Assembly: GCA_964030785.1 (NCBI GenBank)
Contig: OZ034979.1
Coordinates: 6,489,423-6,553,422 of the forward strand
DNA length: 64,000 nucleotides
Direction: 5' to 3'
Origin: Siderastrea siderea
Lineage: Eukaryota; Cnidaria; Anthozoa; Scleractinia; Rhizangiidae
Each line of letters starts with the position of its first letter. Positions within the stretch are counted from its first letter, which is position 1. Both the position numbers and the translations under genes were made by a program. Under the pieces are notes generated by a model that had not been told where the DNA came from, searched no databases, and was given only the letters and a program-made list of their open reading frames with translations. Of this stretch, positions 7,479 to 50,707 are shown piece by piece.

Positions 7479-7536
7479 ATGAGTATCGTAGGGATTTTCA
7501 GCGTCTGCTTGGCAATCGCGATTTTTGGTAAAACAG
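7479..7536 (+). CDS. Exon 1: start codon and signal peptide
   Basis: ATG at 7479 opens 19 codons that form a short hydrophobic signal peptide ([17 protein letters not shown]). The exon ends in phase 1 at a GTAAAT donor. The next exon joins in frame to give the first MAM cysteine only a few residues later, which supports this start. A 5' UTR and promoter could not be defined. Confidence 0.75.

Positions 7537-50707: not shown

Follow-up and report, generated by a model that had tools for sequence, protein, structure and literature searches.

Introduction

To our knowledge, the only animal ionotropic glutamate receptor (iGluR) known to carry a K+ filter is that of a rotifer. Here we analysed a window of 64,000 nucleotides from the coral Siderastrea siderea (GenBank assembly GCA_964030785.1, contig OZ034979.1, positions 6,489,423 to 6,553,422), which holds between its positions 7479 and 50707 the exons of a giant gene in which adhesive modules precede an iGluR-shaped channel with such a filter. 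The closest described receptor, AvGluR1 of Adineta vaga, combines the architecture of animal iGluRs with the filter signature of K+ channels (PMC12332018, PMC12226733, PMC3483616). Its reported architecture is that of eukaryotic iGluRs, with gating by amino acids, whereas the family to which the window gene belongs has an adhesion head, a SEA domain and an array of FN3 domains, and shows no ligand-binding Arg that we could see. GluR0 of Synechocystis and the bacterial Group 1 receptors are described with two-lobed S1/S2 halves around a TxVGYG pore (PMC2950845, PMC12332018) and two transmembrane domains; the window family differs by a third helix after S2 and by its giant ectodomain.

Two further systems resemble the extracellular part. 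Adhesion G protein-coupled receptors (GPCRs) such as Gpr126 have a long adhesive ectodomain with a cleavable SEA or GAIN joint near the membrane signalling part, and a GSVVV-type SEA motif occurs in some of them; SEA joints that carry a GSVVV or GSIVA motif undergo cleavage, and cut SEA domains are reported to hold together until force or binding intervenes (PMC6954182). There the signalling part is a seven-helix receptor, and in the window family it is a K+-filter channel. A skeletal 'MAM and fibronectin-containing protein' of a stony coral (Acropora; B3EX02, B7T7N1) likewise has MAM and fibronectin modules, but it is represented by fragments of 422 and 112 residues and is compared here by description only; the same paper proposes that membrane proteins have their ectodomains cut off, which then become occluded in the coral skeleton (PMC4043741). 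A full-text literature search for an adhesion-headed K+-filter iGluR architecture found no description, and the architecture is not mentioned in the available portions of the literature on AvGluR1, GluR0 and the metazoan iGluR classes (PMC12332018, PMC12226733, PMC2950845, PMC6307864). We call the K+-filter iGluR the known part and the ectodomain principle the new part.

An adhesive head, a SEA joint and FN3 repeats are joined to a K+-filter channel

Our preferred reading, to which we assign a probability of roughly 0.58, is that the window gene is one damaged copy of an anthozoan family of giant adhesion-headed channels that would sense contact and could be cleaved at SEA. In the body plan of this family, a variable adhesive head, a SEA domain and an FN3 array lead straight into a pore of iGluR shape that bears a strict K+ filter. 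A first protein search returned nine hits, two of which matched the window along the exon chain by tblastn: P0001 from Oculina patagonica (72% over the channel) and P0002, which is Stylophora pistillata LOC111336503 (50%). Together with gene modelling by dynamic programming and splice sites checked by hand, these matches gave the following chain on the + strand between 7479 and 50707:

7479-7536, + strand: exon 1, with the start codon and a likely signal peptide (predicted by the dynamic-programming gene model)
7631-9217, + strand: MAM domain, exons 7631-7780 and 8961-9217 (Pfam MAM, E 4.4e-31; tblastn with P0002)
10608-10710, + strand: end of the MAM domain (tblastn with P0001, 72%, E 9e-12)
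11142-14322, + strand: LamG-1, exons 11142-11202, 11734-11982 and 14072-14322 (Pfam Laminin_G_3; tblastn with P0001; phases)
15428-15532, + strand: EGF-like exon (cysteine pattern; tblastn with P0002, 39%)
17234-18658, + strand: LamG-2 coding exon, broken by two inserts (tblastn with P0001, all three pieces)
26418-26530, + strand: SEA exon a (tblastn with P0001, 60%, E 7e-11)
26638-28693, + strand: SEA exon b, broken by insert E3 (flanks and phases)
29206-29351, + strand: SEA exon c, with a G-S-V cleavage-like motif (tblastn with P0001, 69%, E 5e-12)
30718-38822, + strand: FN3-1 to FN3-8, single exons (Pfam fn3; phase 1-1)
39427-39732, + strand: FN3-9 exon, with an in-frame TAG at 39666-39668 (splice checks; tblastn)
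40538-42171, + strand: FN3-10 (40538-40686 and 41106-41253) and FN3-11 (41866-42171) (splice checks; tblastn)
43910-44379, + strand: S1 half of the ligand-binding-like domain and M1 (tblastn with P0001, 71%, E 1e-75; P0010 structure)
45028-45122, + strand: pore helix and TVG, the first half of the K+ filter (splice checks; Ion_trans_2)
45523-45679, + strand: YGD, the second half of the filter, with M2, the pore-lining helix (splice checks; tblastn)
46359-48104, + strand: S2 half, exons 46359-46425, 46763-46896 and 47967-48104 (tblastn with P0001, 73-92%)
49041-49215, + strand: last transmembrane helix (tblastn with P0001, 54%)
50499-50707, + strand: cytoplasmic tail and stop (splice checks; tblastn with P0001, 36%)

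From FN3-1 to the stop, the phase was kept with AG/GT borders over 20 exons. The draft spliced model also matched two Laminin_G_3 stretches (E 9.4e-19), fn3 (4.5e-88) and Ion_trans_2 (2.9e-12) in Pfam. Thus the original prediction, which had read MAM, LamG, EGF, LamG, SEA, 11 FN3 and a channel with a K+ filter in that order, stands for the MAM, both LamG, the FN3 array and the channel, and its profiles matched except that SEA gave no hit in the draft and Lig_chan fell short. The EGF-like exon had no Pfam match at E 0.1 and was called from its cysteine spacing, judged by eye, and its likeness to P0002. Exon 1 is likely a signal peptide, being hydrophobic by eye, and no homologue covered it.

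Each of the 11 FN3 domains is one phase 1-1 exon, except FN3-10, which is made of two. FN3-1 to FN3-6 (30718-37561) are two alternating FN3 types in three tandem pairs. In the Oculina array two such alternating pairs and two other FN3 domains were seen by eye; the composition of the array seems to differ between the two species.

The channel has a K+ filter and, judged from a relative, an iGluR fold

The filter TxVGYGD is present in the window as TVG/YGD (the slash marks an intron), and GYGD was found in all 15 rows of the channel alignment. A K+ filter is thereby set within a pore of iGluR topology, a trait of the GluR0/AvGluR1 type. The pore exon was found in 15 of the 17 distinct S1 loci examined, with the sequence of one (L025) ending before the filter. 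In all 13 loci checked besides the window, the intron that splits the filter lies in the first glycine codon, where the exon ends GG/GT or starts AG/NTAY. This intron (window 45122/45523) is conserved in L009, L012-L014, L016-L018, L021-L024, L027 and L028. Simple repeats (GATTGATT, GATGAT) were observed in two channel introns, at 46081-46300 and 48780-48850.

The window scored 15.0 bits with the Lig_chan profile, below the cut-off of 30.8, and the iGluR identity was therefore taken from relatives and from structure. Four of the 14 relatives scanned (P0004, P0005, P0008 and P0017) scored above the cut-off. The structure of the relative P0010 has the two-lobed ligand-binding fold of iGluRs, in which the pore lies between S1 and S2, and the order S1-M1-pore loop-M2-S2-last helix (helices at residues 203-236, 245-261, 273-309 and 449-483); the order in the window is the same. 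GluR0 headed the list of structural matches to the P0010 ligand core. Searches of solved structures by sequence yielded only K+-channel pores among the best 60 of 246 and the best 60 of 511 matches, so that the link to iGluRs requires fold comparison. SYTANLAAF is the gate motif of the iGluR pore-lining helix, and none was seen by eye in the 15-row alignment. A periplasmic-type amino-terminal domain, usual before S1 in animal iGluRs, is absent from the 13 Pfam families listed for the draft. FN3, SEA, LamG and MAM modules lie ahead of S1 instead, and the earlier statement that adhesion modules take the place of this domain holds for the window chain, P0001 and P0002.

In a profile comparison with P0014, a bacterial GluR0-like protein, the pore aligned and nothing else did. 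At the S1 column aligned with the Arg of P0014, where the alignment is weak, Arg is absent from all 15 rows, which makes ordinary amino acids unlikely ligands; we read the S1/S2 site as one that probably no longer holds them, to the extent that so weak an alignment permits. An acidic residue in S2 (Asp in 13 rows, Glu in two) presumably corresponds, judged by eye, to the amine-binding acid of iGluRs.

The SEA assignment comes from relatives

Since the window draft has no SEA match in Pfam, its SEA domain was called from relatives. Against a cut-off of 26.4 bits, P0001 reached 13.2, P0005 21.1 and P0017 19.2; P0006 alone exceeded it (42.5), and the other 10 of the 14 relatives scanned gave no match. 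A G-S-V motif of the self-cleavage type was found in the window and in seven of the eight relatives looked at (the comparison covered those other than P0004, P0007-P0010 and P0018), and not in the two stretches of P0006 compared.

The channel belongs to an anthozoan family with exchanged heads

P0002 carries MAM, two LamG, 12 fn3 stretches and Ion_trans_2 in a single protein, and the model of P0001 has two LamG and 11 fn3 stretches, with the start of the MAM missing. Both orthologues therefore fuse the two halves, as the original prediction of one gene had it, and neither presents them as separate genes. In a tree of the 15 channel rows, the window grouped with P0001 (100/100) and next with P0002 and P0010 (100/99); two long-branch warnings, for P0007 with P0008/9 and for P0004 with P0006, leave the window unaffected. 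Two of the three protein searches scored only the candidates richest in common words (7,989 and 7,998), and the third used words from the S2 of P0005; orthologues with exactly this head may have been missed in further corals.

The heads of the relatives vary: LamG with 9-18 TSP1 was found in Nematostella, Montipora, Acropora and Dendronephthya, SEA-FN3 repeats in Nematostella, and F5/8C with a C-type lectin in Oculina. Because Dendronephthya is an octocoral and Oculina a stony coral, with members also in Nematostella, the sequences place the origin of the family before the hexacoral/octocoral split, unless genes moved. Those proteins of the family that bear a name are labelled 'uncharacterized' or 'hypothetical' in public databases, and one is labelled PTPRQ.

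When P0010 was searched against the coral's own genome (831 Mb, 402 contigs), the best 76 of 538 candidates were retained as matches. By hand count, 32 places cover S1, the window included (E 4e-66 to 2e-6, identity 24-65%), so the locus is not a lone chimera. Contig C14 holds 16 of them, C12 five, C5 four, C3 and C10 two each, and C2, C4 and C11 one each; some contain stops, the filter was looked for in 17 S1 loci, and some of the C12 places may be recent duplicates. P0003 (source jgi) is a protein of 1,240 amino acids from a 5,234-base contig, with a SEA-like part, FN3 and the channel, and no introns. It matches the paralogous genomic locus L024 at 96% (residues 612-716), 99% (716-871) and 88% (866-905), through exons which the genome separates by 700-800 bases, and we infer that its contig is a spliced RNA of the same or a near species.

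A neighbouring paralogue (C14:6445464-6463801, L029-L030) lies on the - strand, head-to-head with the window gene, its S1 exon 37.5 kb before the window. It has an FN3 array and a channel, closest to P0010 and P0002, but its filter reads TVG/YED, unlike the TVG/YGD of the family; no MAM or LamG was detected in 40 kb by tblastn with P0001 and P0002. Its YED is either a natural filter change or the mark of another dying copy. Elsewhere in the window, none of 10 other open frames matched Pfam. These included one from a long repetitive stretch at 61578-62583, in which several frames are open (repeats like VYVRL).

Three transposons and a nonsense codon interrupt the window copy

Three transposable elements lie within coding exons, two in LamG-2 and one in SEA, each with an exact target-site duplication (7, 8 and 9 bases):

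17303-17663, + strand: insert E1, 361-base inverted-repeat element in LamG-2 (duplication TTGGACC; perfect terminal inverted repeats of 28 bases)
17892-18268, + strand: insert E2, 377-base element in LamG-2 (duplication AACCTGAG)
26649-28645, + strand: insert E3, 1,997-base inverted-repeat element in the second SEA exon (duplication GCTGTTCGG)

LamG-2 is a single ancestral exon (17234-18658) that holds both E1 and E2, and for each insert the exon flanks on either side share the same frame. If the exons are read uncut, the first stops come at 17470 in LamG-2 and at 26833 in the SEA exon. In addition, where FN3-9 has its TAG, P0001 of Oculina has Gln. The original prediction of a single open frame of 2,338 codons (7,017 nt) crossed three inserts and a stop; with the inserts excluded the count is 6,945 nt, or 2,315 codons with one internal stop (a start of the second SEA exon at 26638 would take off 6 nt). 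A frame of 2,338 codons without interruption is ruled out, and the data do not support the claim that the protein first described is made from this copy.

A second copy of E1 (99.2%) lies in an intron of the window at 9676-10036. The best 40 of 350 genome candidates, its own included, show 99-100% identity along the full 361 bases, and this near-identity throughout the genome suggests that the E1 family is young and probably active. For the inner 1,580 bases of E3, the best 40 of 491 candidates (its own included, some partial) are 92-100% identical. The ends of E3 have inverted repeats of 10-11 bases (CCGGAACACC) and splice-like GTAAAA and TTTTACAG. Apart from the lesions every exon is open, so we read the damage as recent, and the window copy as a gene or allele that was probably disabled not long ago. 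A giant reading frame that convinces by eye may cross fresh transposon inserts.

Discussion

Several points weigh against our preferred reading. The structure is that of P0010 and not of the window (mean pLDDT 76, pTM 0.55, and below 50 at filter residues 264-266); SEA is under the Pfam cut-off in all scanned relatives except P0006; the models of P0004, P0010 and P0018 are headless, all three starting within FN3 repeats; and a chain of cryptic splice sites with ordinary scores, obtained from the first gene model and a wide scan, keeps the frame over E1, E2 and E3. The last point raises the chance that the gene still works and lowers our confidence. We nevertheless consider it unlikely that the gene works, through splicing around the inserts or because they are limited to the present haplotype or assembly, with FN3-9 skipped. 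Skipping FN3-9, a 306-base phase 1-1 exon, would preserve the frame, and in the first gene model open paths run at E1 from donor 17468 (score 1.6) to 17678 (-0.7), at E2 from 17770 (1.3) to 18243 (-0.4) and at E3 from SEA exon a (26530) to 28497 (0.1), scores that fall inside those of the model's 31 donors (-0.1 to 5.3) and 31 acceptors (-2.4 to 4.1). The likeness of the E1 copies means that this insertion may still be polymorphic, and the open exons outside the lesions would suit a working gene. However, the bypass product would contain about 57 residues coded by E1 and about 60 coded mostly by E3, and would lose about 40 residues of LamG-2, none of which is shown by relatives. Clean splicing-out is unlikely: excision of E1 would depend on donors scoring -2.4 or lower, weaker than any of the 31 in the model, and among the 12 pairs near the ends of E3 the frame is kept by weak pairs only, the pair GTAAAA/TTTTACAG at the very ends yielding a stop. 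The search for a transcript of the window locus found none, which counts against a working gene and equally leaves room for an adhesion protein gene and a channel gene wrongly joined as neighbours. The headless models would also fit two genes, but phase 1 is maintained across 42171/43910, P0001, P0002 and other relatives fuse both halves, and P0003 carries SEA, FN3 and the channel in one intronless sequence, so that a false join is very improbable.

If the family works as we propose, the head (MAM-LamG-EGF-like-LamG) would bind matrix or an adjacent cell, the two-lobed domain would receive position or tension through the FN3 array, the SEA joint would allow the head to be pulled off or shed, and the pore would release K+ and quiet the cell. 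That force or adhesion is the main gate is a tentative idea which we regard as doubtful. A small diffusible ligand might act as the main gate, as in GluR0 and AvGluR1, with the head and FN3 merely positioning the channel at a contact or the matrix; we give this somewhat less than an even chance, and the Arg missing from the weakly aligned S1 column argues against ordinary amino acids in that role. We would likewise give rather low odds to the fullest form of our proposal, in which anthozoans evolved and expanded two-piece, SEA-cleavable inhibitory K+ channels gated by adhesion or force, with swappable matrix- or sugar-binding heads, an FN3 cable pulling a glutamate-blind clamshell, and heads possibly shed into the skeleton.

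A channel family in which the heads vary and the FN3-plus-channel body is constant occurs in corals as well as in one sea anemone and one octocoral. This family offers a direct test of whether adhesion or tension, and not a transmitter, can work the iGluR clamshell, and it bears on the means by which cnidarians perceive contact, self, symbionts or skeleton. If the proposal is true, these proteins would be the ion-channel equivalent of adhesion GPCRs, and their heads might be shed into the coral skeleton.
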